DNA of 64,000 nt, from contig CANIVF010000002.1 of the NCBI GenBank assembly GCA_947470895.1, positions 1-64,000 on the forward strand, in the 5' to 3' direction. The translations under genes were made by a program, and so were the position numbers. Source of the DNA: Bacteroidota bacterium. GTDB taxonomy: Bacteria > Bacteroidota > Bacteroidia > Cytophagales > Cyclobacteriaceae. The notes beneath the pieces are model-generated. The model made no database searches and was not told the DNA's origin. It saw nothing but the letters and a program-made list of their open reading frames with translations. Shown in pieces: positions 6,724 through 32,395 of the stretch. How positions within the stretch are numbered: the first letter of the stretch is position 1; each line of letters opens with the position of its first letter.

Positions 6724-6777
6724 TCTACCTGTTGTTTGTTGTTGGTTGATCGTTGCTTGTAATCAATGAACAATAAC

Positions 6778-8652
6778 TTATGATTCTATTTCTTCCTTTT
6801 CTGCTTCTTCAATCACATCTAATTCGAAGCGAAGGTTTTCAATGATAAACTCCTGGCGATCGGGTGTATTTTTACCCATGTAGAACTCCAGAATTTTTTG
6901 CAAATGTCTCTCCGCATCAATGCGGACTGGTTGCAATCGAATTTCATCGCCAATAAAGTTTCCAAACTCTTCGGGTGAGATTTCTCCCAATCCTTTGAAA
7001 CGTGTGATCTCAGGTTTGCTTCCCAACTTAGCTACCGCTGCCTGCTTTTCTTCTTCGCTATAGCAGTAATGTGTTTCCTTTTTATTGCGAACGCGAAATA
7101 ATGGTGTCTCCAAAATATACACATGCCCTGCCTTTACTAAATCAGGAAAGAACTGCAGAAAGAATGTCATCAACAACAAACGGATGTGCATACCATCCAC
7201 ATCAGCATCAGTTGCTACTATCACTTTGTTGTAACGAAGTCCTTCAAGACCATCTTCAATATTCAATGCATGCTGAAGCAAGTTGAACTCTTCATTTTCA
7301 TACACCACTTTTTTGGTGAGACCAAAACAGTTGAGTGGTTTACCACGCAAACTAAATACGGCTTGTCTTTCTACATCGCGTGATTTTGTGATCGATCCGC
7401 TGGCCGAGTCACCCTCCGTAATAAAGATCATGGACTCGGCACCCTTCTCTCCTTTTTCATCATCAAAATGAAAACGGCAATCGCGAAGCTTCTTATTATG
7501 GAGGTTTGCCTTCTTGGCTCTTTCGTTCGCAAGCTTTTTAATACCCGCAATTTCCTTACGCTCTCGCTCCGATTGCAAAATGCGTTTGAGCATAGCATCA
7601 GCCACGATGGGATTTTTGTGTAGATAGATTTCTAACTCCTTAGACACGAAATCACCCACAAAGTTTTTAACTGTAGCCCCATCGGGTGCCATGTTCATCG
7701 AACCGAGTTTTGTCTTGGTCTGCGATTCGAACACGGGCTCTTGCACACGTATTGCAACCGCAGCCACTATGCTTGCGCGAATGTCTGCTGCATCAAAATC
7801 TTTCTTATAAAAATCACGTACACCACGAACAACACCTTCGCGGAAAGCTGCTAGGTGCGTTCCTCCTTGTGTGGTATTCTGTCCGTTGACGAATGAATAA
7901 TATTCTTCCCCATACTGACTGCCATGCGTAAGCGCTACTTCAATATCATCACCTTTAACGTGAATGATCGGGTAGCGAATATCTTCGGCATCGGATTTCT
8001 GTTTCAATAGATCGAGTAATCCGTCCTTGGAATAAAATTTACGACCGTTGTAGTTGATGGTAAGACCAGCATTCAGGAATGCGTAGTTCCACATCAAATC
8101 ATCCAGGTATTCTGGAATGAAATGATAATGTTTGAACATCGTGTTGTCGGGTTCGAACTCTACCAGTGTTCCGTTCCTCTCATCTGTTTTTGTTTCCTTG
8201 GCATCTACTGTTAAAACTCCTTTCTTAAATTCAGCAAGTTTTGTTTTGCCTTCACGGAAAGCCTGCACTTTGAAATAGTTAGAGAGTGCGTTTACTGCTT
8301 TAGTACCCACGCCATTCAATCCCACTGATTTTTGAAACGCGCCAGAATCGTACTTGGCACCAGTGTTTATTTTAGAAACAACATCCACCACTTTACCCAA
8401 CGGAATGCCCCGACCATAGTCGCGCACCATCACATGCTGATCAGTGATTTTCACATCAATGGTTTTGCCATAACCCATCATGTGTTCATCAATGCAGTTA
8501 TCGATCACCTCCTTCACCAACACATAAATACCATCATCTTTGGCCGAGCCATCGCCAAGCTTACCAATGTACATTCCCGGACGCAACCGGATGTGTTCAC
8601 GCCAATCGAGTGATCGGATACTCGCTTCGTTGTATTCTATCTCCTTCGCCAT
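6778..8652 (-). CDS. parE: DNA topoisomerase IV subunit B (start re-assigned to internal [14 protein letters not shown])
   Basis: GHKL ATPase and TOPRIM motifs ([43 protein letters not shown]). Confidence 0.93.
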
Positions 8653-8908
8653 GTTATTAATCCCTTTTTTAAATCGCGCAAAGTTTAAAAAAATCAACCT
8701 GAACTTCCATTGAAAAATTTCAATTGACGGTTGTTAAACACTGATTTGAAGTGATTCGAAAAATATCTCAGATTCAAATCACATCTAAGAAAGCAATTTT
8801 TACGCTGACTACAAGCATGAAAATCAGCTGCAGCCTGCAAAAAATCAATAGGTGAATTGCAATAAGTGGTTGATCTTCAGAAACCAAAACGCACGCACAG
8901 CAATCAAA

Positions 8909-9340
8909 TTATCTTGAAATAATTTTTCTATACAAAAGAAAAACCGGCCAGCTCATCATCCATAAAAAAAGTAAAATCAAACTACCGTAAATGGCCGGCC
9001 CCATGTTGCTGAAATCATATCGATCGCCCCCATTGAAAATATGAATGAAGCCCAATGATGTGAGGAAGAAAAAATTAAAAGTAGCAACCAGGCCATAAAA
9101 CCAGGAACTAAAACCCTGATCTCCATTGCTTAACAGCTTATTGACCACAAACACCAACACGTTGATCACCGCAAAAAGAAGGATGGTAGCATAAAAGAAA
9201 CCATTAAGGGATATGGACAGGTTACTCGTTGATTCTGAGAACGCTACCTCCGCAGGGAGGCCAGCATACACATAGAAAAACACCACGAGCAATGTTAATA
9301 AGGAAAAGAACCAAACTCCTTTGAATATCTTTAAAATCAT
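8909..9340 (-). CDS. Hypothetical membrane protein (4 TM)
   Basis: ORF 8909..9439; the internal Met MILKIFKGVWFF is the likelier start. Hydrophobic segments. Confidence 0.55.
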   Translation of the reverse strand: MILKIFKGVWFFSLLTLLVVFFYVYAGLPAEVAFSESTSNLSISLNGFFYATILLFAVINVLVFVVNKLLSNGDQGFSSWFYGLVATFNFFFLTSLGFIHIFNGGDRYDFSNMGPAIYGSLILLFLWMMSWPVFLLYRKIISR

Positions 9341-9449
9341 GTGGTTAAATTTGATGGCAAAACTAACTGATATTTTAGATTTGATTCTGCCTGATTTAAG
9401 GCCTGTTCTAAAATTTTGAGGTAGACCGCTGATAAACATAAACTAAAAC

Positions 9450-9818
9450 ATGAAAAATCTAGTCTGGATTGGCCTTTCTGTATTGATGATTACCTGCGGA
9501 AAACCTCTGCCGGATCTTGCACCGATGGATCTTGCTCTATGGAAAAATGACAAAGGAGGCTGTAAACAACAGAGGATCAATCTGATCGAAGAATTGAAAA
9601 ATCAAAAAGATGAACTCAAGGGGCTTTCAGAAAAGGATATCATTGCATTACTAGGCCGGCCTGATCATAATGAACTCTACAAGCGCAATCAAAAATTCTA
9701 TTACTATGACATCGAGCCTGGTAAAAGTTGTAATAATGAGGTAGCTGGTCAGCAGTTGGTTATACGTTTTACTGCAATGGGTTATGCAAAAGAAGTATCA
9801 ATAGAAATGATTGAGTGA
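9450..9818 (+). CDS. Hypothetical small lipoprotein
   Basis: Signal/lipobox-like MKNLVWIGLSVLMITCGKPLP; SmpA/BamE-like phrase LSEKDIIALLGRPDHNELYKRNQKFYYYDIEPG. Confidence 0.55.
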   Translation: MKNLVWIGLSVLMITCGKPLPDLAPMDLALWKNDKGGCKQQRINLIEELKNQKDELKGLSEKDIIALLGRPDHNELYKRNQKFYYYDIEPGKSCNNEVAGQQLVIRFTAMGYAKEVSIEMIE

Positions 9819-9870
9819 AGATCAGCTGTGTAAAGCATTGGTCTGAAACTACTGCTTTTTGGCCTTTGCC

Positions 9871-10319
9871 TTAATTGATGTTTTTTCTCAGCACATTCAC
9901 GGGCGAATCTTTCTTTTTGTAGTTAAAGGGATAAAGTAGCGAGGGCTTGAAATAAAATTTATCACCGAGTTGCTCTGTGTCTAAAGTTCCACCTCGTACA
10001 CACCTCCTAAACTTTTTATATCAATCTCTTTGATATTCTCCAAAGGTATCACGATGTATTGTCCGCGGAGGATCACTTAGAGATAGTCTTCATCAAACTC
10101 TACACGGTGAACGTTTCTGTTTAATCGTATCCAGCCATATGTTAGAAATCCAAAATAAACAGTAGTAGTTACAGGGCTTACGTAGAGCTTGTCTCCACGT
10201 ATAGCCTGTATCGCTACGAAGACAAAAAAAAGCATTTCCTAGACTAGCACTACCAACACATTACTCTTATAAAACCCCAGGTAACGGGTGGATAAACTCT
10301 TAATTCGTTGACTTTTCAT
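9871..10319 (-). pseudogene. Decayed membrane/PH-like domain protein gene
   Basis: Minus strand reads MKSQRIKSLSTRYLGFYKSNVLVVLV*EMLFFVFVAIQAIRGDKLYVSPVTTTVYFGFLTYGWIRLNRNVHRVEFDEDYL*VILRGQYIVIPLENIKEIDIKSLGGVYEVEL, then shifts frame to EQLGDKFYFKPSLLYPFNYKKKDSPVNVLRKNIN*. In-frame stops at 10239-10241 and 10077-10079, frameshift near 9983. Confidence 0.8.
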
Positions 10320-10360
10320 TTCTGCGATTATCTTTACAATAAGTTAAAATACGAACATGT

Positions 10361-11251
10361 ATGAAAAACATAGCTGTCATTGGTTCTGGCACGATGGGAA
10401 ATGGAATTGCCCATATTTTTGCCCAGCACGGATTTTCTGTTACCCTTATTGATATCTCAGAAGATGCCCTTAAAAAGGCAGAGGCCACCATTGAAAAAAA
10501 TCTTGGCCGACAGGTTGAAAAAGGATTGATTAAAGAAGAGAACAAGAAGAACGCTTTGGCCAATCTTTCTACGACCACCTTTATGAAAGAAGGGGTGCGC
10601 GATGCCGAACTGGTTATTGAGGCCGCCACCGAAAATATTGATTTGAAACTGAAGATATTCAAAGAACTTGACGAAAGCACGAAGCCCAATACCATTCTTG
10701 CCAGCAACACATCATCTATTTCCATCACTAAAATTGCCTCAATAACGAAGAGCCCTGACTTGGTGATTGGTATGCATTTTATGAACCCAGTGCCCGTGAT
10801 GAAACTGGTAGAAGTGATTCGGGGATACCGAACGAGCGATGCAGCGACTGCTCAAATTATGGAACTTTCCAAAAAACTGGATAAGATCCCTGTTGAAGTA
10901 AATGACTATCCGGGCTTTATAGCCAACCGACTTTTAATGCCCATGATCAATGAGGCCATCTGTGCATTATATGAGGGTGTTGCCGGTGTAGAAGAAATTG
11001 ATACGGTGATGAAATTGGGAATGGCGCATCCGATGGGTCCGTTGCAGCTAGCTGATTTTATCGGCCTAGATGTCTGCTTATCTATACTTCATGTTCTCTA
11101 TGATGGATTTGGAAATCCAAAATATGCACCATGCCCAATATTGGTAAACATGGTGCAAGCCGGCCACCGTGGTGTAAAAACCGGAAGTGGTTTTTATCAA
11201 TACAAAGCGGCTAGCAAAGAATTAGTGGTCGCTGAACGATTTAGAAAATGA
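10361..11251 (+). CDS. hbd: 3-hydroxybutyryl-CoA dehydrogenase (3-hydroxyacyl-CoA dehydrogenase family)
   Basis: Rossmann GSGTMGNGIAHIFAQHGF; NDYPGFIANRLLMPMINEA; HPMGPLQLADFIGLD. Confidence 0.92.
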   Translation: MKNIAVIGSGTMGNGIAHIFAQHGFSVTLIDISEDALKKAEATIEKNLGRQVEKGLIKEENKKNALANLSTTTFMKEGVRDAELVIEAATENIDLKLKIFKELDESTKPNTILASNTSSISITKIASITKSPDLVIGMHFMNPVPVMKLVEVIRGYRTSDAATAQIMELSKKLDKIPVEVNDYPGFIANRLLMPMINEAICALYEGVAGVEEIDTVMKLGMAHPMGPLQLADFIGLDVCLSILHVLYDGFGNPKYAPCPILVNMVQAGHRGVKTGSGFYQYKAASKELVVAERFRK

Positions 11252-11544
11252 GTGAGGAAAAAGACAAAAGGTTTATTTCGTATTGGAACGAAGAACGTAA
11301 GAAAAACCGCTGGCTGTTTGCTTTTCAACAAGGAGTACTCCGGTTTGTCTGGCCAGTTTATTTTGGCTCCGAATTGTTCAAATATTTTATTCGGAGGGGA
11401 GAGCCTAACTACGTGTTTTCACCGGAGCTATTCGTATCAGGATTTGTGATCTGGACTGGTCTAGCCTTACTGGCTTACCAGTTTTTTATGTGGCCTACGT
11501 ATGAAAAACGTTATAAACGTTTAACAAAAAAAGAGAGCGATTAG
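11248..11544 (+). CDS. Hypothetical membrane protein
   Basis: 98 aa with two hydrophobic segments; overlaps the upstream stop by 4 nt. Confidence 0.55.
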   Translation: MSEEKDKRFISYWNEERKKNRWLFAFQQGVLRFVWPVYFGSELFKYFIRRGEPNYVFSPELFVSGFVIWTGLALLAYQFFMWPTYEKRYKRLTKKESD

Positions 11545-12037: not shown

Positions 12038-12814
12038 CTACTTTAGAATCTGACCCTCTTCCAATAAAATAGCATATTTATACCCGGATCCAAAATCTTT
12101 GTTGAGCACGACTTTGCCAACCATAGTAACGGTATGCCCTTCGGGAATTAATACACTGCTGGTGATAACCAAATCATAATCGTCTTTGCTTCCGTCTTTA
12201 AGATGCATCCAATTACGACCCATGATGTTGGGATTGACCTTCGTGCACTGACCACTAATCTGAATCGTTTTTCCAGAATACTTTTGTGGGTTGGCTACAA
12301 GATCAGCAATTTTAACTGAGCCTTTCACAGCTAGGTTTCCAGCACTTTTAATGGTGACTGTCTTTGTTTCAACCTGTGAATTTTGTGAAGCATGATCGGC
12401 CTCTACGACAGAGGATACCAAATACATCTTTTCAAATACACGATTGTGCTCCTTGCTTTCAAAGTTTGTTTTCAGCAGGCCATCGCGGTAAAAATAGGTT
12501 CCACCAATAGTTACTTCCATTTTCGATGTAGCAATCCAGAATTCTTCCTGTCCCTCCTTCACCCGAAGATAAACATACCGTGTAGTAGGCAATGATTCCA
12601 GAATAGTAACGGTGTGTACATCTTCTACATTGACATTAGCCAGTTTGGGCAAATCGGTGAGTACTGGAAAAGGATTTTCTTGTGAAAGAATGCCGGTGCC
12701 CTCTGTGGCATTCTCAGAATTTGCAGTAATGACTTTGGGGTCTTTACTACAACTCATCACTATGATAGCAATACAGCTTAGTTGGATCAATCGTATGAGA
12801 TAATTTGTTTTCAT
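12038..12814 (-). CDS. Lipoprotein with OB-fold-like C-terminal domain, last gene of cytochrome cluster
   Basis: Lipobox (IVMSCSKD); OB-fold-like YSGKTIQISGQCTKVNPNIMGRNWMHLKDGSKDDYDLVIT...GHTVTMVGKVVLNKDFG. Confidence 0.6.
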   Translation of the reverse strand: MKTNYLIRLIQLSCIAIIVMSCSKDPKVITANSENATEGTGILSQENPFPVLTDLPKLANVNVEDVHTVTILESLPTTRYVYLRVKEGQEEFWIATSKMEVTIGGTYFYRDGLLKTNFESKEHNRVFEKMYLVSSVVEADHASQNSQVETKTVTIKSAGNLAVKGSVKIADLVANPQKYSGKTIQISGQCTKVNPNIMGRNWMHLKDGSKDDYDLVITSSVLIPEGHTVTMVGKVVLNKDFGSGYKYAILLEEGQILK

Positions 12815-12828
12815 TGACTTATTGTTTG

Positions 12829-14406
12829 TTAAAAGTTTTTACTAATCCTTGCGTTTACTCGATAGTTGTCCTCTTCAGATGACATGGTTGACAATTCACC
12901 TAAAACACTCAGGTTCATTTTTTTTGCTAACCGATAATTAAGGCTTGCACCATAGTACTGCTGACTATTCTTCATTTCGCGACTTGAATACGTGTAGTTC
13001 GCCATTCGATAATAAATATCCGCATCGAGTTTTTCTTTAATCAAAGATCTTGAATGCCTGAACGAGAAAATCTTACTTTCGAGATAAGATGATTTATTTT
13101 CATTGTAGTTGATAAACAACATTCCTCCCAGCCCGGGCACTTTTGACCAGTTGAAATAAGCATTCAGGTTGTCCGACACATTGAGGTTATTGCTTTGAAA
13201 TCGTCTGCTATAATTTGCTCCGATGTTGATAAACTTTATCGGCCGAAGGTTCAATCGGTACCTGATTCCCTGCCTGGCTTCATCATTATCCAGGATACGC
13301 TCTATTTCAGTTTTCAGAGTTTCGTAGTAAATAATCTGCTTGCGCGAATCATACGAAACATTAATGTCAATCCATTTCGCGAGTTGATATCCCATCGAAA
13401 CGTATAGATTGGTAAGCCTGATATCGCCCATCGAATCGGAATTCACCTTATTGTAAAGATCAAGCTCAAAGGATGAAAATAGAGTGAGCTTTTGGCCTAT
13501 GGTACTTGAGTGCTGAAAGTATCCATATCGTCTGTCTACGTTACCATTATTATCCTGTTCCATCACCCCAAGCGTGGTTTGCGAGTAGAGTGATTTGTTT
13601 TCTCCTTTCAAACCAATATAACCACCATATTGAGATAAATCGCGATTAAAAGTATAATCCACAATATCTGGCCTGTAGCCAACCAACATACCCATATAGA
13701 AATTCCCAAAATGCTTTTCGGCTTGTAGTCCGTCAATCGCCCCGAGGGATGATGCTTTAGGATTTATTTTTCTTCCTACCGAGATCGACATGGTGGGGCT
13801 TACATCAATTCGGATGGCCAGATTATAAATATTTAATACATCTTTATCCTTGATGTACGTACTATCCTTAATTCTAAATGTTTGTCTGTAATTAATATAC
13901 GTTTCCAGCGAAAATTTAGAATTATCAATATGGTTTGCATCCATAGAAAAACGATACATGGTTCTATGTATATCTCCCTGAATTGCTGAAAAACTACTAT
14001 AACTCGCTGCTGAAATTACTCCTCTTAAGGATTTGTTATTCCTTAACGGCAGCTTAGAAGTTATAGTGATTGTTGTGGTTTTCTTGACTTGTTCCTGAAC
14101 CACTTGTTTTTCGACCCGGGTTGTTTTATGAACGATATCGTCTCCTACTTTTACTTCACATCCTTTGATGAGTGATGCCACGCACGACATGGATGACTTG
14201 TTCTTTACAATCAAACAAGGGCTCTGGATTTTATTACGACTAACCATAAGGGTATCTCCGATCTCAACATTTTGCGTTGTTTCAAACTTGACATACGCAT
14301 TCGTGGAAGTAACAAAAGTCACTTTCCCTTGCAAAGGTGGTCTTTGACCAAAGCAGGTGCTTAACCTTAGATGCAAGATGAATAGTATGAGCAAGGTCCT
14401 TATCAT
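12829..14406 (-). CDS. Outer-membrane beta-barrel protein (candidate porin partner of the multiheme cytochromes)
   Basis: Signal peptide, many alternating amphipathic strands, C-terminal Phe (NARISKNF); start overlaps the upstream cytochrome stop (TAATG). Confidence 0.65.
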   Translation of the reverse strand: MIRTLLILFILHLRLSTCFGQRPPLQGKVTFVTSTNAYVKFETTQNVEIGDTLMVSRNKIQSPCLIVKNKSSMSCVASLIKGCEVKVGDDIVHKTTRVEKQVVQEQVKKTTTITITSKLPLRNNKSLRGVISAASYSSFSAIQGDIHRTMYRFSMDANHIDNSKFSLETYINYRQTFRIKDSTYIKDKDVLNIYNLAIRIDVSPTMSISVGRKINPKASSLGAIDGLQAEKHFGNFYMGMLVGYRPDIVDYTFNRDLSQYGGYIGLKGENKSLYSQTTLGVMEQDNNGNVDRRYGYFQHSSTIGQKLTLFSSFELDLYNKVNSDSMGDIRLTNLYVSMGYQLAKWIDINVSYDSRKQIIYYETLKTEIERILDNDEARQGIRYRLNLRPIKFINIGANYSRRFQSNNLNVSDNLNAYFNWSKVPGLGGMLFINYNENKSSYLESKIFSFRHSRSLIKEKLDADIYYRMANYTYSSREMKNSQQYYGASLNYRLAKKMNLSVLGELSTMSSEEDNYRVNARISKNF

Positions 14407-16742
14407 TATCTACTACCTCGTGGATGACAATTCAGGCACGCGTTGCTTGCATAGACATAACCATTCTCACCTTGGTGATCGCTATCAACCTTGGTCTTAT
14501 TATTATGTTGGTGGCAATCAATACAACTAAATACAGCATAGTTGCTGCTATTCGTATGACATTCTGTGCAAGACGTCCAGGCATCTTTGTGTCTTCCACT
14601 ATATATCGGAAAGTACATTCCATCATGATCGAAAGTTGCCGGAGTCCATGCCGTTTGGGTATGGCACTGCTTGCAATCATTAGGGAAATGTGCTGCCGTA
14701 TGATTCGGATTTGTAGTTGTATTGTAATCCGTTTGGTGACAACCCACGCATGTATTAGGTGTATTCACATACCCGGCAGCATGACACTGTACACAGTTGC
14801 TGGCAATCGTCTTATGCGCTTCCACCAATGGATAGATCGTGTTATGATCAAAATTAGAAGGGATCCATGCCGACTCGGTGTGACACTGTTTACAATCTGT
14901 AGGAAATAGTGCCGCTTTGTGATTAGGATTTGCAGTGGCGTTATAATCCGTCAAGTGACATCCCACGCAAGTGTTTGGTGTATTCACATAACCAGCAGCA
15001 TGACATTGCACACAATTTTTGGAAATAGATTGATGAGCTCCCCCTAAAGGATAGATGGTGTTATGATCAAAATTAGAAGGGATCCATGCTGACTCGGTAT
15101 GACATTGTTTACAGTCGGTAGGAAACTGAGCTGTCTTATGATTTGGATTTGCTGTGGTATTGTAATCCGTTAAGTGACATCCCACACACGTGTTGGGTGT
15201 ATTCAAATAACCAGCGGCATGGCATTGCACACAATTACTGGCAATGGGTTTATGAGCGCCTAGTAATGGATAGATCGTATTATGATCAAAACTTGATGGA
15301 GTCCATGCTGACTCGCTATGACATTGTTTACAATCAGTAGGAAACTGAGCTGTCTTATGATTCGGATTTGCTGTGGCATTGTAATCCGTTAAGTGACATC
15401 CCACGCAAGTATTGGGTGTATTCAGATAGCCAGCCGCATGGCATTCAACACAGTTATTCGCAATTGATTTATGTACACCTAATAAAGGGTAGACTGTGTT
15501 ATGATCAAAACTTGATGGCGTCCATGCCGACTCGGTATGGCATTGTTTACAATCATTCGAAAACTGAGCCGCTTTATGATTCGGATTTACTGTGGTATTG
15601 TAATCCGTTAAGTGACATCCCACACACGTGTTGGGTGTATTGACATAGCCAGCAGCATGACATTGAATGCATTCATTGGCAATTGATTTATGAGCACCCT
15701 GCAATGGATAAACCGTATTGTGGTCGAAATTTGATGGTGACCACGCAGACTCAGAATGACATTGTATACAGTCGGTATTGATTTGGGCTGTCTTGTGATT
15801 CGGTTTTACTGTAGTATTATAGTCCGTTAAATGACATCCTACGCATGTATTTGGTGTATTCACATAACCAGCAGCGTGACATTCAACACAGTTGTTAGCA
15901 ATTGATTTGTGAGCACCTTGCAAGGGGTAGATTTTGTTGTGATCAAAATTGGAAGGCGTCCATGCTTCGATGCTGTGACATTCTGTACAGGTTTTGGGAA
16001 AATTATTAATAGTATGATTAGGTTCTTTGGTAGCAGAATAGTCCATCAAATGGCAACTGGCACATTCTGGTGAAGCATCCGAATATTTACCAGTGACATG
16101 GCATTGTTTACAATCCTGTATGGCGTGGCCTAAGGTGAGCGGAAAAAAGTCATGATTGACGAGTTCTGAATTCCACCCATCCGAAGAAAAGGGATCATGA
16201 CATTCAGCACAATTAGTTGAATAACTTGCTTTTTGATGATCCGGTGTTTTTGTGTTTAAATAATCATCCCGATGACAATTAACACAATCATTTCCGATGC
16301 GATCAAACCTTAAGTTAGTCTCTGATACATGGCAATCCACACAACTCGGAGCAGTATGCGAACCCGCCAGCGGAAATCCATTGGCCTCGTGCAGTTCAGG
16401 AATGTTATCAACGATCCAGCTTTTGGGTGTATGGCATCGTGCACAATCATTTCCCACCGACATGCTATGAACATCGGTATGGCAATTAACACATTCTGCT
16501 GGCGCATTTGAAAAAACTAAGGAAGTATGACAAGCCTTACAATCGGTTTGCGAATGGTTTCCTACTAATGGAAAGGTGGTTGCATCATGATTGAAGTTCA
16601 GTTTTTTCCGAATGGGCAACCAGCCTGAAGAATAATGGCAACCAGCACAATCGATTTTGAGCGACTCGCCATGTGGCGATTGTGCGTAGGTCTGAATGAT
16701 AAAACCAAATAGAACAAGGATTATTGATGACAGTCTATACAT
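14406..16742 (-). CDS. Multiheme cytochrome c, 31 CxxCH motifs, with tandem triheme repeats
   Basis: 31 CxxCH motifs counted by hand in 778 aa; Sec signal peptide (MYRLSSIILVLFGFIIQTYAQ). Confidence 0.93.
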   Translation of the reverse strand: MYRLSSIILVLFGFIIQTYAQSPHGESLKIDCAGCHYSSGWLPIRKKLNFNHDATTFPLVGNHSQTDCKACHTSLVFSNAPAECVNCHTDVHSMSVGNDCARCHTPKSWIVDNIPELHEANGFPLAGSHTAPSCVDCHVSETNLRFDRIGNDCVNCHRDDYLNTKTPDHQKASYSTNCAECHDPFSSDGWNSELVNHDFFPLTLGHAIQDCKQCHVTGKYSDASPECASCHLMDYSATKEPNHTINNFPKTCTECHSIEAWTPSNFDHNKIYPLQGAHKSIANNCVECHAAGYVNTPNTCVGCHLTDYNTTVKPNHKTAQINTDCIQCHSESAWSPSNFDHNTVYPLQGAHKSIANECIQCHAAGYVNTPNTCVGCHLTDYNTTVNPNHKAAQFSNDCKQCHTESAWTPSSFDHNTVYPLLGVHKSIANNCVECHAAGYLNTPNTCVGCHLTDYNATANPNHKTAQFPTDCKQCHSESAWTPSSFDHNTIYPLLGAHKPIASNCVQCHAAGYLNTPNTCVGCHLTDYNTTANPNHKTAQFPTDCKQCHTESAWIPSNFDHNTIYPLGGAHQSISKNCVQCHAAGYVNTPNTCVGCHLTDYNATANPNHKAALFPTDCKQCHTESAWIPSNFDHNTIYPLVEAHKTIASNCVQCHAAGYVNTPNTCVGCHQTDYNTTTNPNHTAAHFPNDCKQCHTQTAWTPATFDHDGMYFPIYSGRHKDAWTSCTECHTNSSNYAVFSCIDCHQHNNKTKVDSDHQGENGYVYASNACLNCHPRGSR
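14661..15989 (-). repeat. Tandem repeat, 6 units of 219 bp (73 aa), inside the 31-heme cytochrome gene
   Basis: CVGCH codons at 14736, 14955, 15174, 15393, 15612 and 15831, i.e. exact 219-nt spacing; units read CVGCHxTDYNxTxxPNHKxAxFPTDCKQCHxESAWxPSxFDHNTxYPLxGAHxxIxxNCVxCHAAGYxNTPNT. Confidence 0.95.
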
Positions 16743-18310
16743 TGGAATTTGGTTATTTTATATTCTACTAAAATTTTTCCATCCTTCTCATACGGTTTAT
16801 GGCACTGGCGGCATTCTACCTTGGCATGCTTACCATCCAAAGGAAATTTTGTTTGGTTGTGATCAAACTTACTGGGGAACCAGGTTTCAGAATCATGGCA
16901 TCGAGTGCAATCCGTAGCGCCCTTCACCTCAAAACGATTACCGTGAATATTCTTGTGGCATTCAGTGCACGTTGAACTATTTTTTCTGAATGACCATCGA
17001 TCTTCACTTACATGACATGAAAAACACGGTGTAGCAGCATGAGCTCCCTGCAAAGGAAATTTTGTTTTCTGATGTTGATCGGCAGAATATGAGGTATGCT
17101 TAAAATCTTCAGCCAGGGAGTGACATTCGATACAATCAGGAGAAATTCCGTTCTTCAAAAATTCACCTTTGTGATAATCCTTATGACAGTTTTTGCATGC
17201 TGAGAAATTAATCGCTTCCGTATATTTTCCCTTATGACAAAGTTTACAATCCACGCCTACATGCTTTCCCACGAGAGGATAATCAGTTGCACTATGATTG
17301 AATGTATATAGTGATTTAATAGATTTGAAATCCGTTTCCACATGGCACTTTGCACACGTGTTACCCATCTTTCCTGTATGGATATCTTTATGGCATGCTA
17401 TACATTGAGTTTCTTCTACATTTGGCCAATAAGCAAAAGCCGTTGCAGCAGTGCTGGTGTTTTTATGACAACTGAAACAATGCACCGTTTTGTGCTTTCC
17501 CATCAAAGCAAAATCGGTAGTTGTGTGATCGAATCGATTCTTACCAATAAATTCCTTAAATGAATTTTCTGTATGACACTGTGTGCATTTGCCCTCGATG
17601 CGGCTCTTGTGTGGATCGGTGTGACAAGCCACACAATCGTTATGAGGAATATTGGTAAACTCTTGAAATTGCTTTCCGTTTCTTGTGATTGTCTTATGAC
17701 ATTCCTTGCAATCCACTTCAACATGTTTACCGCCAAGTTTAAACTTGGTCAGATTATGATCAAACTTTGAAGCCGGTTTAAAGGCTTTCATATCATGACA
17801 TTTAACACAATCATTGGATAACGTTTTTTGATGATAATCTTCATGGCAAGTGAGACACTCCTGTTTCAAACCCAGAAAAGTTTCCTTTTTCTTTTTAATC
17901 TCCTGGCTTTGAATATTGCCACTCTTATGGCATTCCCTGCACTCTACCGTGGCATGTGCACCTTCGAGTTTATATTGGGTGAGGGCATGGTTGAATTTCC
18001 TTTCATCAAATCGCACCATGTCAAATTTTATTCCATGATGCTCGCTGTGGCACGCAAAGCAATCTTTACCCTTTACGTCCACACTAACATGGTACCCCTT
18101 ATTGAGTTTGACCAGCGACTGAAGGTCTTTATGACAATCCAGGCATTTATTATTGTTTACCTTCTTTCCCAGGTCATGGCATAAGGTACACTTACTCATA
18201 CCTTCCAAATCGCTATGGGCCTGAGAGAGATCTCCAGGTGATAATTGTCCATAACTAATTGAATTTGCTAGTACCATTATACTTAATATAAATACCCACC
18301 TGAGTCTCAC
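16721..18310 (-). CDS. Multiheme cytochrome c, 20 CxxCH motifs
   Basis: 20 CxxCH motifs counted by hand in 529 aa; Sec signal peptide; 22-bp overlap with downstream cytochrome gene. Confidence 0.93.
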   Translation of the reverse strand: MRLRWVFILSIMVLANSISYGQLSPGDLSQAHSDLEGMSKCTLCHDLGKKVNNNKCLDCHKDLQSLVKLNKGYHVSVDVKGKDCFACHSEHHGIKFDMVRFDERKFNHALTQYKLEGAHATVECRECHKSGNIQSQEIKKKKETFLGLKQECLTCHEDYHQKTLSNDCVKCHDMKAFKPASKFDHNLTKFKLGGKHVEVDCKECHKTITRNGKQFQEFTNIPHNDCVACHTDPHKSRIEGKCTQCHTENSFKEFIGKNRFDHTTTDFALMGKHKTVHCFSCHKNTSTAATAFAYWPNVEETQCIACHKDIHTGKMGNTCAKCHVETDFKSIKSLYTFNHSATDYPLVGKHVGVDCKLCHKGKYTEAINFSACKNCHKDYHKGEFLKNGISPDCIECHSLAEDFKHTSYSADQHQKTKFPLQGAHAATPCFSCHVSEDRWSFRKNSSTCTECHKNIHGNRFEVKGATDCTRCHDSETWFPSKFDHNQTKFPLDGKHAKVECRQCHKPYEKDGKILVEYKITKFQCIDCHQ

Positions 18311-18316
18311 GGTCTG

Positions 18317-19660
18317 TTAATTATGCTTCTTCATAACGTGACCAAACCTTTTAGTAATTTCCACTCCAGCATTTTTAAGAAATTGCGTAGGCAATTCTCC
18401 TCCCGCAAAAATGTAAACCAGGTCATTTTCGAATTCCCTGATATCTTCATCAGCCTTTATTAAAATTGTTTTTTCACTAATAGAAACTAAATCTGAGTTA
18501 AACATCACCTGAAGTGATTTACTGGCGATAGCCTGCTCCACGTTCGCTTTGTTTTTAGGCTTTAGTCTTGAAAATTTATCACTTCGGTAAGATAGGATAA
18601 CGCTATTTTTATCATTCAAAAGCAAAGCCGATTCAATGGCTGAATCACCACCACCAACTACAACAACTTTTTTATTGGAGATTCTCTCTGGCTCCAGCAG
18701 TCGGTAAGCCACTTTTTGAAGATCTTCTCCTACAACATTTAACTTTCTAGGGCTTCCTCTCCGCCCGATTGCCAGAAGAACATTATTGGTTATGTATTCA
18801 TCACCAGTATTGGTTACAAGTTTAAAGGTTCCGTTGAGCAGCGGTTTAATGTCGTTTACCTTAGTGTGCTCTTTGATCTTAAGATCGTTTTCCGAAGTTA
18901 CCTTAGTCCACAAGCTGAGCAATTCGTCTTTTGTTGTATCGGTCAGTTTTATCTTGCCAAATAGTGGTAAATCCATAGGGGAAGTCATAACCACTTTAGT
19001 TCTTGGAAAAGTGTAGACTGTGCCACCGAGCGAATTTTGCTCTATCGTGATGCTTTTTAAACCATGTTTTTTTGCAGCCAGTGAGGCAGAGATTCCCGCT
19101 GGGCCAGCTCCGACAATAACCACATCAAGCACATTTTCTATATTTCGCTTTTTGCGCTTTATAATATTCTCTATGGCTTGCTGACCTTGCTCAACGCTGT
19201 TCTTAATCAATCCCATTCCACCTAATTCTCCTGCGATATAGATGCCTTGTATATTGGTTTCAAAATTCTTATTTACATGAGGCAAGTCAACACCCCTCGA
19301 TTCTGTTCCAATACGCAATGAAATAGCCTCCACAGGACAGGCGTGAAAACAAGCACCGTGACCAACACAATTTGAAGCATTGATTACTGTTACCTTGCCT
19401 TCGTTCAATCCTAAAATATCCTTTTCAGGGCAGGCCGTTATGCAGGCCGCACTTCCTATACAGGTGTTGAGATCAATATAGGGATGAAGCGAAACTGGTT
19501 CGAATAATCCTTCTGCTTTAGCAACAGAAACTTTTTGTCTTGTCTTCGCTGTCTTCGCCTTATCGTTCCTTAAATAGAAGTATACCACTACCGCGCACAG
19601 TAGAGCCAGAGTTCCGTAAATTAATATTTGCTCTATCAGTACTTCCATCAGAATATCCAT
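18317..19660 (-). CDS. Membrane-anchored NAD(P)/FAD-dependent oxidoreductase with ferredoxin-type 4Fe-4S domain
   Basis: N-terminal TM helix; CIGSAACITACP and CVGHGACFHACP; two Rossmann motifs (VVIVGAGPAGISASLAAKKHG, VVVVGGGDSAIESALLL). Confidence 0.85.
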   Translation of the reverse strand: MDILMEVLIEQILIYGTLALLCAVVVYFYLRNDKAKTAKTRQKVSVAKAEGLFEPVSLHPYIDLNTCIGSAACITACPEKDILGLNEGKVTVINASNCVGHGACFHACPVEAISLRIGTESRGVDLPHVNKNFETNIQGIYIAGELGGMGLIKNSVEQGQQAIENIIKRKKRNIENVLDVVIVGAGPAGISASLAAKKHGLKSITIEQNSLGGTVYTFPRTKVVMTSPMDLPLFGKIKLTDTTKDELLSLWTKVTSENDLKIKEHTKVNDIKPLLNGTFKLVTNTGDEYITNNVLLAIGRRGSPRKLNVVGEDLQKVAYRLLEPERISNKKVVVVGGGDSAIESALLLNDKNSVILSYRSDKFSRLKPKNKANVEQAIASKSLQVMFNSDLVSISEKTILIKADEDIREFENDLVYIFAGGELPTQFLKNAGVEITKRFGHVMKKHN

Positions 19661-20502
19661 TTATATCCAAATGACAACGTGACCACCACGTGTACGATCA
19701 GAACTATTGCCATAATCAATGCAAAAGGTAAATGAGCAACATGCCAATACCTGAAAAGCTTCTGCATCGTCTGTAATCGTCTTATCTTATAAGCAAGTGA
19801 AATCTCTTCCTTAAGCAATTTCATAATGGACAACCTCTGCTTCTTTTCAACCTTCCGTTTCGATAACTCTTTGCTTATTGTTCTTATTGTTCTCTTGTTT
19901 TCAAAATATTGAGAAAAGAATGAAGTCTTTTCGGAGGAATCATGAACAGAAGTAAAAGAGAGAATCAGACCTCTGAGATGTTCATCGATAACGCTATTTT
20001 TTAAAGTAGCTGATAACCCTGCCTTCATACCCTTTACTTCATTGAGTGTAAGTTCCCTTCCCTCGATGGTGCGTGGTATTTGTATATACACAAATCTTCC
20101 AATGACACCACTCAACACAACAGCCACCATACTCCAGAATGAAATCGAAACTATTCCTCCAAACTTAAACGCAGTGTGAAAAAGAACCAAAACAGGACCG
20201 AGCGTACAGAGGAAAATATGAAATTCCAGGAGGTATTTTAATCGTATTCCTTTTAGCAACAAATTGTATCGCTTTCTGGCGATATAAATAAAGACGCCAA
20301 TCAATATCAAAATTGTACCTGCAATACCAAGGCCGTGACCAAACACACCGCTTGGTCTAAACCAGTTGTGCTGAGGGTGATAAAATCTTTCCTCTATTGA
20401 AATAGTATAATAAGAATATCCTGTATATGCCAGGTAGGCTGTTACCGCCAATACGATGAGCACCATGGTAGCTATATAAAGGGTATGAACCGTTTTATTC
20501 AT
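19648..20502 (-). CDS. Membrane protein, candidate diheme cytochrome b
   Basis: Multi-TM; two histidine pairs 14 residues apart: FHIFLCTLGPVLVLFH and AHLPFALIMAIVLIVH. Start overlaps oxidoreductase ORF by 13 bp. Confidence 0.6.
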   Translation of the reverse strand: MNKTVHTLYIATMVLIVLAVTAYLAYTGYSYYTISIEERFYHPQHNWFRPSGVFGHGLGIAGTILILIGVFIYIARKRYNLLLKGIRLKYLLEFHIFLCTLGPVLVLFHTAFKFGGIVSISFWSMVAVVLSGVIGRFVYIQIPRTIEGRELTLNEVKGMKAGLSATLKNSVIDEHLRGLILSFTSVHDSSEKTSFFSQYFENKRTIRTISKELSKRKVEKKQRLSIMKLLKEEISLAYKIRRLQTMQKLFRYWHVAHLPFALIMAIVLIVHVVVTLSFGYKWIF

Positions 20503-20518: not shown

Positions 20519-23500
20519 TTAGTTGAATATGTTAAACTTTCGTTTCTTTATAAATGCCAGCACACTAATAATCAAAAGTGCTGTGATAACTATATAGATC
20601 CATTGCGGTATAGGCACCGGATCGCCAGCAGCATAGGAGTGCAATCCAGACAAGTAATAGTTGACTCCATAGTACGTCATGATGACCGATGCTAGTCCAA
20701 AAATTGTTGCAAAATTATAGGAGAAAAGGCCTTGCATTTTGGGTATGATCCGCATATGAAGGATAAATGCATAAACGAGTATAGTTACCAGTGCCCATGT
20801 TTCTTTGGCATCCCATCCCCAATACCTTCCCCACGATTCATTAGCCCAAACCCCACCCAGATAAGTTCCAATACTAATCATGAACAGACCACCAATCAAG
20901 GTCATTTCACTGAGGTACGACATCTCCCTGATCTGATTATGTATTCTCTCTTTATTCTTTTCGTTGATAAATATCATGAGTATTAGATTGATCAGCCCTA
21001 TAATGGCTCCCAACATCAGAAAACCATAACTACCAGCTTCCAACGATACGTGAATGGTTAACCAATACGATTTAAGTACAGGTACAAGAGGAGTAATTTC
21101 CGGATCCATGTAACTTAAGATCGCAACGAGTAACACGGTGGCCGACAAAATCATGGTAGCGGCCAATCCTCCAAAAGATTTTCTGGCAAATATTACTCCC
21201 GCCATAACCGTTGTCCATGCAATATAGATCATCGATTCATACCCGTTGCTCCAGGGTGCTCGTTCAGACACATACCATCGCAAGCCAAGACCGATCGTGT
21301 GCAATACAAAGGCAATCAGTACCAGACCAAACAATATTATATTCGTCCTAGCTAACTTAAACTCCGGCCTAAACACGGAGAAAAAGAGAAAGAACACCAG
21401 AGCCACTCCTAACAGGGTATACAGCACTGCCAGCCGATTGAAAAGATTGATCCTATTGAGTAAAATTTCTGCGCTGATCCTCGAAGAAGAAGGTATAACC
21501 TCTGCACCCGTTGACTTTTGATACGCTGCCAATTCGGTAACCATTGTTGAAGGCCGTGTGTAGTTTTTGGTAACGGTAGCCTCATTAAGTGCAGATCTGT
21601 ATGATTCAAAAAACTTTGTTGCCAAAGAAGGTTCGGTGTTTTCTTCCTGGTCATGATTATGGTCTGAAGGATGAATGGCCGTCCAGGTATTATTGGGATC
21701 ACCTGCAACAGGAACCATTTTGAACAAAGTGCCTGCAAATACCATATTCGCGATGTTCACCCTTTCGTCAATTTTCATCAGCTCCTTTTCATAAACACCC
21801 CGATCGATCGGCTGTAGACTGTATGCCCGCCTTACTTCATCCTGCAAAAGATACTCTCCGCTTTCTGAAAAAAAATCTTTGTACGCAGCCGTCTCTTGTG
21901 AAACTCCCATTAGTTTATGAATCGCTTCATGCTTACCTATGCTGATCAGATTCACTCCAATCCATTCTTGCGTATTGGAAAACATTCCTAACAACACCTG
22001 ATCAGCGTTCAGGCCATTCAGGTTTTCCTTGCGGGACAGTTTTCTCATTACTTCTCTGGATAACGTGTGAACTGGTTTCATTCGCCCGTTAAGATCCTGA
22101 ACGATGAGCTTACTGAAAGCTTCAGCATGTTCCTTATCAACCGTATTTTGAAAATTACTCTCCCCGATTGTTTTTTGTGCTGAAGTTAATGTTGGTGCAC
22201 TAAGAAGAAGTCCCACTACGATGATGGATAAACTACCCTTTGCCCTTAATTTCTTAATACTTTGAGAAATCTGATAAAATCTACTTTTTTTACTTAAGAG
22301 TGACATAACCATTCCAATAGTCAGGAGTGCATAGCCTAAGTAAGAAATCCATGAACCCCAAAAATCATGATTCACGCTGAGGTAAGTTCCCAACTCATCA
22401 TTGTCAAATGACGATTGAAAAAACCGATATCCATCATGAGTCAATATATGATTCATATAAATGCGATGATTCTCGGTAAGATTTTCCCGATTGTCTATCA
22501 ATTGTACTTCGCTGGCGTAAGAGGCCGCACTGTTGGTTCCCGGGTACCGCTCCATGATGAAATCATACAGCTTGACAGAGAAAGGCAGCGTCATATGTTT
22601 TGCACCATAAGAAATTGCCAATTCCAAAGCATCATGCGTTAGCACTACAGGTTGGCCGTGCAGTCCTTTTGCTCCGTAGATATAGATCATATCTGATTTT
22701 CCATTGATGGAGACCGTGGCTTTAAGAGCTGTCATACTTTCGCTCTTGACTTTTGCACTCTCTGATTTGATACTCACACTGCCTTGCTTGGTAAAATCGC
22801 CAAATACGAAACTGGTAATACCATCGGTATATAATGATCGTAACTTCAATTCATGATACGCATTGGCAGGCAGAGTTTCTCTTGTTTGGGTAGCCATAAC
22901 CGTTTGGGTCAGCTCACGAGAGGACTTTATGAGCAGAGAATCATTTTTGTAAGCAATCGTTACAGCATCCGGGACTTGGTCATCACTGAAATTAAAAATT
23001 ACATCACGGATTTCACGGGTTTCACCCTGACGTACAAAGTATTCCTCTCTTCCTCCATCACCTCCAAATACCACTTTAATGGTTGCCTGACCGCCTGTGC
23101 CTGCATCTAAAACCTGTATGGGGTTTGGAATAAACTCAACGATTTGGACATTAATCAAATCATTTCCGATCAAATAGGATTCGTTCCACTGATTATTTCC
23201 CAGTGACGCAAAAAGTACAGGCTCGTCAAACTCATAGATTTGACCACCTTTATAAACCTTAAATTGCAAGTAGGTATCAGACGATAAAAAACTATTGGAA
23301 ACATCGTTCTCCCTGATGTGCATGATGCCCTCAAAGCCAAAATAACGAGTAACACCTGCACCAATAAGGATGCCAATCATGGCAGCATGGAACGTCAGCA
23401 ATGCCCATTTTTTATGCTCTATCATTCTGAATTTGAATAAATTAACAATGACGGTACCACTGAATAGTGCGAGTAACGTAGTAAACCACCATGTTTTATA

Positions 23501-23653
23501 AATGATTTTCTGTGCGGAACTTGTACCAAAATCATTTTCTATAAATGTGCCTACCGCAATGGCAATCGCAAAAGAAAGGATATAAAAGCCGGCAGCACGT
23601 GTATTAAAAAGTTTGCTTAGCCATTTTTTCGAGAAGTCAAAAAGCTGCGTCAT
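20519..23653 (-). CDS. ccsBA: Cytochrome c synthase, ResB/CcsB-CcsA fusion (system II)
   Basis: 1044 aa; ResB-like N-terminus; CcsA-type WGRYWGWDAKETWALVTILVYAFILHMR WWD-like motif. Confidence 0.88.
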   Translation of the reverse strand: MTQLFDFSKKWLSKLFNTRAAGFYILSFAIAIAVGTFIENDFGTSSAQKIIYKTWWFTTLLALFSGTVIVNLFKFRMIEHKKWALLTFHAAMIGILIGAGVTRYFGFEGIMHIRENDVSNSFLSSDTYLQFKVYKGGQIYEFDEPVLFASLGNNQWNESYLIGNDLINVQIVEFIPNPIQVLDAGTGGQATIKVVFGGDGGREEYFVRQGETREIRDVIFNFSDDQVPDAVTIAYKNDSLLIKSSRELTQTVMATQTRETLPANAYHELKLRSLYTDGITSFVFGDFTKQGSVSIKSESAKVKSESMTALKATVSINGKSDMIYIYGAKGLHGQPVVLTHDALELAISYGAKHMTLPFSVKLYDFIMERYPGTNSAASYASEVQLIDNRENLTENHRIYMNHILTHDGYRFFQSSFDNDELGTYLSVNHDFWGSWISYLGYALLTIGMVMSLLSKKSRFYQISQSIKKLRAKGSLSIIVVGLLLSAPTLTSAQKTIGESNFQNTVDKEHAEAFSKLIVQDLNGRMKPVHTLSREVMRKLSRKENLNGLNADQVLLGMFSNTQEWIGVNLISIGKHEAIHKLMGVSQETAAYKDFFSESGEYLLQDEVRRAYSLQPIDRGVYEKELMKIDERVNIANMVFAGTLFKMVPVAGDPNNTWTAIHPSDHNHDQEENTEPSLATKFFESYRSALNEATVTKNYTRPSTMVTELAAYQKSTGAEVIPSSSRISAEILLNRINLFNRLAVLYTLLGVALVFFLFFSVFRPEFKLARTNIILFGLVLIAFVLHTIGLGLRWYVSERAPWSNGYESMIYIAWTTVMAGVIFARKSFGGLAATMILSATVLLVAILSYMDPEITPLVPVLKSYWLTIHVSLEAGSYGFLMLGAIIGLINLILMIFINEKNKERIHNQIREMSYLSEMTLIGGLFMISIGTYLGGVWANESWGRYWGWDAKETWALVTILVYAFILHMRIIPKMQGLFSYNFATIFGLASVIMTYYGVNYYLSGLHSYAAGDPVPIPQWIYIVITALLIISVLAFIKKRKFNIFN

Positions 23654-27598: not shown

Positions 27599-29497
27599 AT
27601 GAGGAAACATGATGTTTCAAGAAAATCATTAAGCGAAGTACATGCTTCAGTGGATGCCACCAATCGCAAAGGCTGGCGAAAATTGTTTGCTTTTTTAGGA
27701 CCTGCCTACCTGATCAGCGTAGGTTATATGGACCCTGGCAATTGGGCAACCGATATCGCAGGAGGAAGTCAGTTTGGTTATTCCCTCATTTGGGTGCTGC
27801 TAATGTCAAACCTCATGGCTTTGGTTTTACAAAGTCTTAGTGCACGGCTAGGATTAGTGCGTCAGTTAGATCTGGCACAAGCATCAAGAACTTCTTATCA
27901 TCCCGTTGTCAATTTTTGTTTATGGATACTCGCTGAAATCGCGATTGCAGCAACTGACCTGGCTGAAGTATTAGGAATGGCCATCGGCTTACAGCTACTA
28001 TTTGGTCTTCCATTGATTTGGGGAGTTTCATTAACAGTACTAGACACCTTACTGCTGCTGGTGCTTCAAAGCTATGGCATGCGAAAAATTGAAGCCTTTA
28101 TCGTAGCCTTGGTTTCCATCATCGGAATATCGTTTTTGATGGAAATGTTTTGGGCCAAACCCGATATGGGTGAGTTAGTAAAAGGATTTATTCCCTCACT
28201 GCCCAACGATACCGCACTCTATATTGCTATTGGTATCATTGGCGCTACCGTAATGCCACACAACCTCTACCTGCATTCATCGTTAGTTCAAACCCGCAGA
28301 ATTGACTCCAGCGAAAAAGGAGTATGGAGTGCTATCAAGTATAACCTGATCGATTCTACTATTGCACTCAACGCAGCCTTCTTTGTAAACTCGGCCATAC
28401 TTGTGCTGGCAGCATCCACGTTTTTCAGGGTCGGCATGTACGAGGTTTCTGATATTCAGGATGCGTATAAATTCCTATCTCCCATATTAGGTAATGAGTG
28501 GGGCTCTATCATGTTTGGCGTTGCTTTAATTGCAGCAGGACAAAGTTCTACCATAACCGGAACACTCGCAGGGCAAATCGTTATGGAAGGATATCTCAAT
28601 CTTCGTATTGCTCCCTGGCTACGCAGACTTATCACCCGTCTCATTGCCATCATTCCCGCTTATATCGTCATCCTCATGTATGGAGAGGGAAAAACCGGTG
28701 AACTGTTAGTGCTTAGTCAAGTGGTGCTTAGTCTCCAACTAGGTTTTGCGATCATTCCATTGATTCATTTCACTAGCGACAAAGAAAAGATGGGAGTATT
28801 TGTGATCAGGCCCTGGATGAAAATCGCAGCCTGGACCATCGCCATTATTATCGTTTCACTCAATGCAAAATTGGTCATGAATGAGATTTCAGGTTGGCTC
28901 GTGGTGGCCGGAGATCGCGCCTGGATAGTTTGGCTCACAGTCATTCCGGTTTGCCTCGGTGCTGGTATATTGTTGTTATACATCTCTTTCAAGCCATGGT
29001 TGGATAGAAGAAGAAACGAAAAAACAGCGCGTGCTCCACACGGATCGGCTGCAGAACTGATCAGCTTAACTAAAACAACGTACCATCAAATTGCCGTCAC
29101 TATTGATTTTAGTTCCATCGATTCACTAGCCATTCGCAGTGCTGTATCACAGGGAGGCAAGAGTGCCCACTATTTGTTGGTGCATATTGTGGAAACTGCC
29201 GGAGCTATGTGGTATGGAAGTGAAATAGCCGACCACGAGTCAGACGCAGATGCAAGCGCTCTTTCAAGCTATAGAACACAATTGAGAGAACAAGGGTATG
29301 ATGCTGAAATAAAAATTGGGTTTGGAAATCCCAAGCAAGTAATCCCGGAAATCGTGAACGAATTTGATGCCAATCTGCTCGTGATGGGTGCACATGGCCA
29401 CAAGTGGATGAAAGATCTTGTGTTCGGAACAACGGTGGACACCGTTCGTCACCGGGTGAAAATACCAGTGCTCATCGTACGAGATGCCGCGGAATGA
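27599..29497 (+). CDS. mntH: Nramp-family divalent metal transporter fused to C-terminal UspA-like domain
   Basis: Nramp motif GYMDPGNWATDIAGG and VMPHNLYLHSSLVQTR; C-terminal LLVMGAHGHKWMKDLVFGTTVDTVRHRVKIPVLIV is Usp-like. Confidence 0.92.
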   Translation: MRKHDVSRKSLSEVHASVDATNRKGWRKLFAFLGPAYLISVGYMDPGNWATDIAGGSQFGYSLIWVLLMSNLMALVLQSLSARLGLVRQLDLAQASRTSYHPVVNFCLWILAEIAIAATDLAEVLGMAIGLQLLFGLPLIWGVSLTVLDTLLLLVLQSYGMRKIEAFIVALVSIIGISFLMEMFWAKPDMGELVKGFIPSLPNDTALYIAIGIIGATVMPHNLYLHSSLVQTRRIDSSEKGVWSAIKYNLIDSTIALNAAFFVNSAILVLAASTFFRVGMYEVSDIQDAYKFLSPILGNEWGSIMFGVALIAAGQSSTITGTLAGQIVMEGYLNLRIAPWLRRLITRLIAIIPAYIVILMYGEGKTGELLVLSQVVLSLQLGFAIIPLIHFTSDKEKMGVFVIRPWMKIAAWTIAIIIVSLNAKLVMNEISGWLVVAGDRAWIVWLTVIPVCLGAGILLLYISFKPWLDRRRNEKTARAPHGSAAELISLTKTTYHQIAVTIDFSSIDSLAIRSAVSQGGKSAHYLLVHIVETAGAMWYGSEIADHESDADASALSSYRTQLREQGYDAEIKIGFGNPKQVIPEIVNEFDANLLVMGAHGHKWMKDLVFGTTVDTVRHRVKIPVLIVRDAAE

Positions 29498-31740: not shown

Positions 31741-32395
31741 TAAAACTCTGATTTAACTTTCTAAGCCCATTGTTAAAAAACTATTTTCTGTGCCAAGACG
31801 AGACCTACAGAAAAAATTAAGTCATTTTTCATTTAAGTAGTCCTTTTAATTAAACAACTAGGCAATGATATAGCATTTAGTTTAAACCTATTAACACTAA
31901 TATAAAAATATTCCATTTCTAATGTATATCTAACATTTTCACCTACCGATCTGATGATATTCTTAAACGATTTATCCTTCAAAAATACACTTATTTGGAT
32001 TCAATATAGATTGAGGAATCCATTAAAAAGATGTGTTGGCTCATACCTTTTCCAATGGTAAAATTAAACTCACTAATCCAGGATAAACAGGGTCAAAATC
32101 ATCTGAGAGCTTTAACTCATACCAGGTTCACCATACGAGGAATAATAACTATGACATATGTTCCCGGCTTTAGCTACCATTATTTAACAATGGATAAACT
32201 CGATTTGGTTTTTACTGATCACTAACCGGCCAGCAGTACAATCAGGTGAAAGATACCCCATGCTTACCAACTAGGAATAAAAAAAAGTTGTCACTTTTTG
32301 CATAGGTGAGTAAATCTGTTTCTACATTTACTAGAGAAGTGAGAAGAAAACTCTGACTTTATCCAAACAACCAAAAAAATAAACACTGATTGACT

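Follow-up and report, generated by a model that had tools for sequence, protein, structure and literature searches.

What kind of protein is a cytochrome that carries dozens of heme motifs, most of them in a tandem repeat, and is the number of its hemes a fixed property or an adjustable one? The question is raised by the window analysed here (the whole stretch of 64,000 nucleotides of contig CANIVF010000002.1, from a member of the Cyclobacteriaceae), in which a gene on the minus strand (14406..16742) encodes a protein of 778 aa with 31 CxxCH motifs and a probable N-terminal signal peptide. Heme numbers are given throughout as CxxCH counts from sequence, each motif being presumed to bind one heme covalently; neither CxxxCH nor CxxxxCH occurs in this protein. 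The Pfam families Cytochrome_C7, Cytochrom_c3_2 and MtrC-MtrF II/IV all match it above their cut-offs, and the Cytochrome_C7 / c3-like superfamily (PF14522, PF14537) reaches 101.1 bits against a gathering cut-off of 24.8 and 76.5 bits against one of 25. When solved structures were searched with a profile of the cytochrome, also as a check for kinship with the polymeric OmcS/OmcE/OmcZ filaments, the sixteen-heme 1z1n, MtrF (3pmq) and, weakly, 3ov0 were found; the same search with the single sequence gave no match. The AlphaFold2 model of the 31-heme protein was poor (pLDDT 49, pTM 0.23) and gave no usable heme geometry or spacing.

The first-pass annotation had read the segment 14661-15989 as an array of six in-register 219-bp units, marked by CVGCH codons at exactly 219-nt intervals. 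Indeed, the six CVGCH copies lie at plus-strand positions 14736, 14955, 15174, 15393, 15612 and 15831, and the repeat is real: shifted by 219 nt, the segment matches itself with an identity of 0.80 (0.79 at 438 nt, 0.77 at 657 nt and 0.75 at 876 nt), whereas in 200 codon shuffles no lag between 50 and 899 gave more than 0.35. The 219-bp array was also recovered by Tandem Repeats Finder and by a repeat finder. The 219-bp units thus stand, but six of them as the entire array were rejected. With the unit defined by the spacing CxxCH-20-CxxCH-28-CxxCH-10, the array is longer and comprises eight consecutive units (residues 153-739), which measure 73 aa in six cases, 74 aa in the first and 75 aa in the last, and whose heme gaps are 20, 28-30 and 10-11. 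From the N- to the C-terminus, all on the minus strand, the protein consists of an N-terminal end piece (16287..16742) with the signal peptide and hemes 1-5, strongly conserved in alignments across species; unit 1 (16065..16286, 74 aa), position-fixed across species; unit 2 (15846..16064, 73 aa), which falls near the second units of relatives in a tree of units; units 3-7 (14751..15845), five inner triheme units of 73 aa (219 bp) each; unit 8 (14526..14750, 75 aa), which groups with the last units of relatives; and a C-terminal end piece (14406..14525) with hemes 30 and 31 and then the stop. Five hemes in the N-terminal piece, 24 in the eight units and two in the C-terminal piece make up the 31. 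Judging from heme spacing and the unit tree, units 1, 2 and 8 are to be counted with the end pieces and units 3-7 form the expanded middle.

Besides those of the motifs, the 31-CxxCH protein holds 33 other histidines. Exactly three spare histidines had been claimed for each of the six CVGCH units, and this holds for five of them (FDH, GAH or GVH, PNH), while the sixth has four (FDH, EAH, PNH and AAH). The underlying proposal of one spare histidine per heme extends well beyond this gene. Across 65 proteins, all 517 units contain at least three spare histidines (exactly three in 472), with at least one in the first gap and at least two in the second, without exception; at the level of whole proteins, spare histidines equal or outnumber hemes in 65 of 65, the excess being 0 to 8 even at 88 hemes. 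This comparison argues for, rather than proves, bis-His ligation of every heme. Around the three hemes the ligands are ordered 2 His, 0, 1, with gaps of 28, 10 and 20, whereas in the c7 cytochrome PpcA the order is 2 His, 1, 0 and the gaps are 19 and 9; the unit therefore differs from a c7 domain, even a circularly permuted one, in both ligand order and heme gaps, and that assignment was rejected. The profile TIGR04257 (c7-type triheme nanowire domain) did not list the variable gene at E 0.01, and its score for the partner cytochrome encoded next to it was 33.2 bits against a cut-off of 40. Among the monomeric 'nanowire' cytochromes of Geobacter, represented in the available part of PMC10138318 by GSU1996 (12 hemes) and GSU2210 (27 hemes), GSU1996 is likewise a single chain of repeated triheme domains; according to the same partial text it has one His-Met heme per domain, whereas a spare histidine is present here for each heme.

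The genes from 23653 down to 12038 are all on the minus strand. In this order, they encode a ResB-CcsA fusion assigned by profiles to cytochrome c maturation (system II; 20519..23653); a histidine-containing membrane protein of 284 aa, probably a b-type cytochrome (19648..20502, with a weak DUF4405 match below cut-off); a protein of 447 aa (18317..19660) with a hydrophobic N-terminus and the profile of a 4Fe-4S and pyridine-nucleotide flavoprotein, YpdA/ferredoxin-NADP reductase-like; the partner cytochrome, 529 aa with 20 CxxCH (16721..18310); the variable cytochrome; an outer-membrane beta-barrel of 525 aa (12829..14406) composed of a signal peptide, a small N-terminal beta domain and 22 predicted strands; and a probable lipoprotein of 258 aa (12038..12814), without CxxCH and conserved beside the barrel. 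The first 22 nt of the variable gene lie within the partner gene, and the stop of the variable gene shares TAATG with the barrel start, which suggests one transcript for partner, variable cytochrome and barrel. Nearest to the flavoprotein are YpdA bacillithiol disulfide reductase and the ferredoxin-NADP reductases, a likeness that hints at NAD(P)H as the source of electrons.

For the barrel, AlphaFold2 run with 60 relatives gave a confident 22-strand model (mean pLDDT 87.5); the known structures that fit it best belong to outer-membrane barrels (such as ushers, OprD-type porins and TonB receptors, with Z up to 20). These neighbours of the predicted fold are generic and reveal the class of barrel, not its function; MtrB-type porins are unnamed among the fold matches listed, which excludes nothing. 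In 60 members, no Pfam family was found for the barrel beyond three single weak matches, and a comparison of its profile with solved structures brought up none of the conduit porins.

The barrel is rare in the genus of the window (2 of 62 genomes). An earlier scan of contigs with a single barrel sequence as query gave no match; scanned with the conserved N-terminal part of the cytochrome, the contig collection (genome_contigs) yielded 344 encoding stretches, from which 78 distinct loci were kept. By their labels they belong to the Cyclobacteriaceae, Flavobacteriaceae, Saprospiraceae, Chitinophagales and Prolixibacteraceae or their genera, some being labelled only 'Bacteroidetes' and one (L081) 'bacterium'. 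Duplicate contigs, recognised by string match, were dropped (L081, L089, L139, L148 and L153, equal to L034, L010, L047, L050 and L113, respectively), and L037 and the short pieces L117-L121 were left out of the heme-ladder counts. The barrel of Thermobacterium salinum (L063) is 97% identical to that of Luteirhabdus pelagi. The collections hold one genome per species, and all the variation reported here separates species or genera and derives in large part from short-read assemblies; tallies by class and order, for which the best three candidates per genome were scored, are consequently lower bounds.

The gene order is conserved in Bacteroidota: membrane protein, FeS/flavin protein, 20- or 23-heme cytochrome, variable cytochrome, barrel and lipoprotein. 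Upstream sequence of 5 kb or more is available at 57 loci, of which 54 contain the partner cytochrome gene, 55 that of the FeS/flavin protein and 54 that of the membrane protein; where 2 kb or more is available downstream (again 57 loci), 52 contain the lipoprotein gene. Directly upstream of 72 barrels lies a multiheme gene, complete in 67 cases and truncated by the contig end in 5. The partner is near constant, with 20 hemes in 16 and 23 hemes in 58 complete genes away from barrels. The maturation gene ccsBA was rejected as a fixed part of the cluster, since the automatic test found it near and on the same strand in only 17 of 52 testable loci; a copy is present at many well-covered loci when strand and distance are ignored.

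The number of hemes in the variable cytochrome follows a ladder. Among the 67 complete genes directly upstream of a barrel, 65 have a count of 1 mod 3, with 21 values from 10 to 88 (10, 13, 16, 19, 22, 25, 28, 31, 34, 40, 43, 46, 49, 55, 61, 67, 70, 73, 82, 85 and 88), and the two exceptions (L099 and L111) are 23-heme genes of the partner type. With n the number of units, hemes equal 3n + 7; the counts start at n = 1 (10 hemes), continue with n = 2 (13) and reach n = 27 (88). The 96 other complete multiheme ORFs, away from barrels, comprise 75 with a count of 2 mod 3 (74 with 20 or 23 hemes and one with 5), 18 with 1 mod 3 and 3 with 0 mod 3, the last found at L045 (12 hemes, partner-like) and L075 (39 and 18 hemes). 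At L075 (13659-17968) the 39- and 18-heme ORFs overlap and resemble one large variable-heme gene split by a frame error.

Steps on this ladder occur between close relatives. Heme number differs in 42 of 55 pairs whose barrels are at least 60% identical, always by multiples of three. Two congeners with 49 and 46 hemes and barrels 86% identical align end to end save for one clean 74-residue unit; the four complete genes in their genus, which is of the same order as the window, have 43, 46, 49 and 55 hemes; and G934, a genome in a single contig, has a gene for 22 hemes where a congener has one for 16. Among the nearest kin of the window gene (31 hemes), L038 has two copies with 28 and 19 hemes, L039 has 16, and the truncated L010 has 27, or 28 if the missing N-terminal heme is added. 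Modular growth by three hemes and a variable heme number, both anticipated by the first-pass annotation, are therefore seen among relatives, between species and in steps of three. Mapped onto a tree of 65 barrels, heme number undergoes 43 or more changes, barely fewer than the shuffled mean of 46.5 (lowest of 1000: 40), and unit steps amount to 189 against 275 shuffled, so that clades still differ in size class. Several clusters (L036 at 5631-8363, L038 at 5351-11458, L065, L066, L082, L093 and L105) contain two variable-heme genes of unlike size, often a 13- to 25-heme copy next to a larger one, and L050 (8947-13227) has two facing barrel genes, of which one is accompanied by a 34-heme cytochrome and the other by one of 10 hemes, the smallest in the set.

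A tree of 29 units, from five proteins in four genomes, locates the changes within the array. First units cluster together (100/99), as do last units (100/100), and inner units group by genome (99/95 for L038 and 90/82 for L010), those of the window being unresolved in this tree. The end units thus keep their position through descent, and the middle is remodelled within lineages. High DNA similarity between the units had suggested a recent or ongoing expansion of the window gene, which our estimates contradict. Its inner units 3-7 share 72-87% DNA identity, and of the 15 pairs among units 2-7, nine have a dS above 2 or saturated, three lie between 1 and 2, and three are below 1 (lowest 0.51), so the units are mostly old; at a dN/dS of 0.02-0.16 in the measurable pairs, they are also constrained. 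Recent copying is found in relatives, where stretches of 863 bp (Phaeodactylibacter xiamenensis, 82 hemes), 588, 394 and 239 bp recur exactly within the gene, and 13 of 108 genes contain exact internal repeats of at least 100 bp. In several long arrays (L052, L078, L093 and L105), the closest units are three to five apart, as if blocks had been copied. Similarly, in the 82-heme gene of P. xiamenensis (L070, 10001-16120) units 6-8 equal units 11-13, as if a five-unit block had been copied.

Considering the gene cluster, the ladder and the fixed ends together, we infer, with a probability of roughly 0.6, that the variable cytochrome is the part of adjustable length in an outer-membrane conduit for electrons, one of the porin-cytochrome type that is widespread in Bacteroidota. 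In such a conduit, a cytoplasmic donor, probably NAD(P)H, would give electrons to the FeS/flavin protein, from which they would pass to the membrane b-type cytochrome and on to the constant 20/23-heme cytochrome, which would deliver them to the variable cytochrome, held by or threaded into the 22-strand barrel; the flow may also run inward. Within the variable protein, the fixed ends would dock and the middle, a run of triheme units of 73 aa whose hemes would be bis-His ligated, would set the length, more units giving a longer wire. Recombination between units would add or remove whole units, so that heme number would move in steps of three without disturbing the reading frame, the ligand set or either docking end. 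A broader proposal, which we put forward tentatively and at somewhat less than even odds, is that Bacteroidota have a length-adjustable wire with fixed docking ends and a triheme array of variable number, in which recombination makes three-heme steps and by which lineages (perhaps strains or subpopulations) are tuned in reach or charge capacity.

Known porin-cytochrome conduits (MtrCAB and Geobacter pcc), as presented in the available part of PMC4245776, in the text of which the terms Bacteroidetes, Cytophaga and Flavobacteri are absent, similarly have an outer-membrane barrel gene beside that of a periplasmic-type multiheme cytochrome in one cluster. In contrast to these, the barrel described here is unrelated by sequence in the searches made, the cytochrome has 10 to 88 hemes in threes, and the cluster has its own FeS/flavin and membrane module. 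An outer-surface multiheme cytochrome (MtrC/OmcB type) was not found in the cluster, the gene after the barrel being without CxxCH. This absence, the missing sequence match of the barrel to solved conduit porins and its generic fold neighbours speak against the conduit reading.

At a span per heme of roughly 1 nm, a protein with 13 hemes could remain within the periplasm. Straight arrays of 82-88 hemes would exceed it, if that is where they lie, and the long forms would then have to bend, coil, protrude or store charge. Storage is central to the alternative that survives best, an electron capacitor whose hemes hold envelope charge, the number of units setting capacity and not reach, and the barrel serving only as anchor or for export. 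The range of unit numbers, too wide for one gap width, speaks in its favour, as does the storage proposed, in the available parts of the two sources, for the giant cytochromes of activated sludge, mostly from Bacteroidota (PMC11495043), and for the Geobacter nanowire cytochromes (PMC10138318). The fixed ends and the regular pairing with barrel and constant cytochrome nevertheless suit a connected conduit better; we regard the capacitor as possible but distinctly less probable, and note that the two functions are compatible, neither being exclusive.

Alternatively, the cluster could encode a cell-surface terminal reductase or detoxification system (for metal, selenite or similar), with unit number reflecting neutral drift of a repeat array. 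Such a role is hinted at by weak matches of the partner cytochrome to the selenite/tellurite-operon cytochromes ExtN/ExtO, far below cut-off, and drift by the exact heme number, which has almost no inertia on the barrel tree. Yet no catalytic domain was found in the cytochromes, no unit is short of a candidate sixth ligand, the unit steps on the same tree (189 against 275) imply that size is not free of history, and the low dN/dS values indicate units under constraint, all of which make this explanation unlikely.

Contig ends do cluster in the variable gene: at 76 loci, 23 of the 61 ends fall within it (112 kb) and 38 outside (1012 kb; p = 8e-9), a density of 0.205 against 0.038 per kb, fivefold higher than up- or downstream, and near-identical units defeat assembly in some genomes. 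That array length is an assembly artefact is nonetheless very improbable, given that the longest exact repeat within the window gene is 52 bp, which makes short-read collapse of its array unlikely, that the 20 genes listed as having exact repeats of at least 71 bp include neither the 49- nor the 46-heme congener, that the 22 hemes of G934 come from a single-contig genome, and that end units are kept by position, which is unexpected from assembly error. Two contigs (G938 contig 20 and G944 contig 186; L140 and L141) begin inside the variable-heme gene; one of them is 476 kb long, so unresolved arrays occur even in good assemblies.

Giant cytochromes have been reported before. As far as the available text of PMC11495043 goes, activated-sludge genomes encode undescribed Bacteroidota cytochromes with more than 100 motifs, Saprospiraceae dominate the 50 most site-rich proteins, and electron transfer or capacitor roles are speculated upon; the available part of a lake study (PMC6344600) describes putative porin-cytochrome genes in Bacteroidetes, as well as a cytochrome with 51 motifs encoded on an unbinned contig. 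These proteins share with ours the phylum, families (Saprospiraceae) and very many heme motifs, and the variable-cytochrome family is probably among these giants from activated sludge and humic lakes; in their accessible portions, however, both papers count motifs, and neither a triheme ladder nor fixed ends, a constant partner or a gene cluster is described. The cytochromes of ANME archaea, with up to 86 motifs, are also giants proposed as outer-layer conduits but have S-layer and other domains and no barrel, according to the part of PMC9012536 available. Multiheme cytochrome genes of Borgs likewise contain tandem repeats, described in the available part of PMC9879509 as Thr/Pro-rich, disorder-linked and outside existing domains, whereas here each repeat carries three hemes. 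In the literature searched, which was covered as partial texts and included few subscription papers, no description of the three-heme ladder, the fixed ends or the cluster of this family was found.

Known natural cytochromes differ in everything at once, which makes wire-length scaling and the choice between wire and capacitor hard to test. The loci compared here form a natural series in which heme number ranges from 10 to 88 while ends, partner and barrel stay the same, and in which two congeners are a single unit apart. If the variable cytochrome is indeed part of an electron conduit, they also suggest outer-membrane conduits in many Bacteroidota rarely deemed electroactive (Maribacter, Flagellimonas, Lutibacter, Phaeodactylibacter and Saprospiraceae).

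Three other features were noted elsewhere in the window. Positions 27599-29497 encode an Nramp transporter fused to a universal stress protein domain. At 32359-32733, a Lys/Ala-rich sequence with repeats of 12 and 36 bp has no Pfam match, and its product presumably resembles histone H1. Finally, 55610-60562 encodes a protein of 1650 aa with a peptidase C25 (gingipain-type) domain and an FlgD-like C-terminal part, which is possibly type IX secreted.
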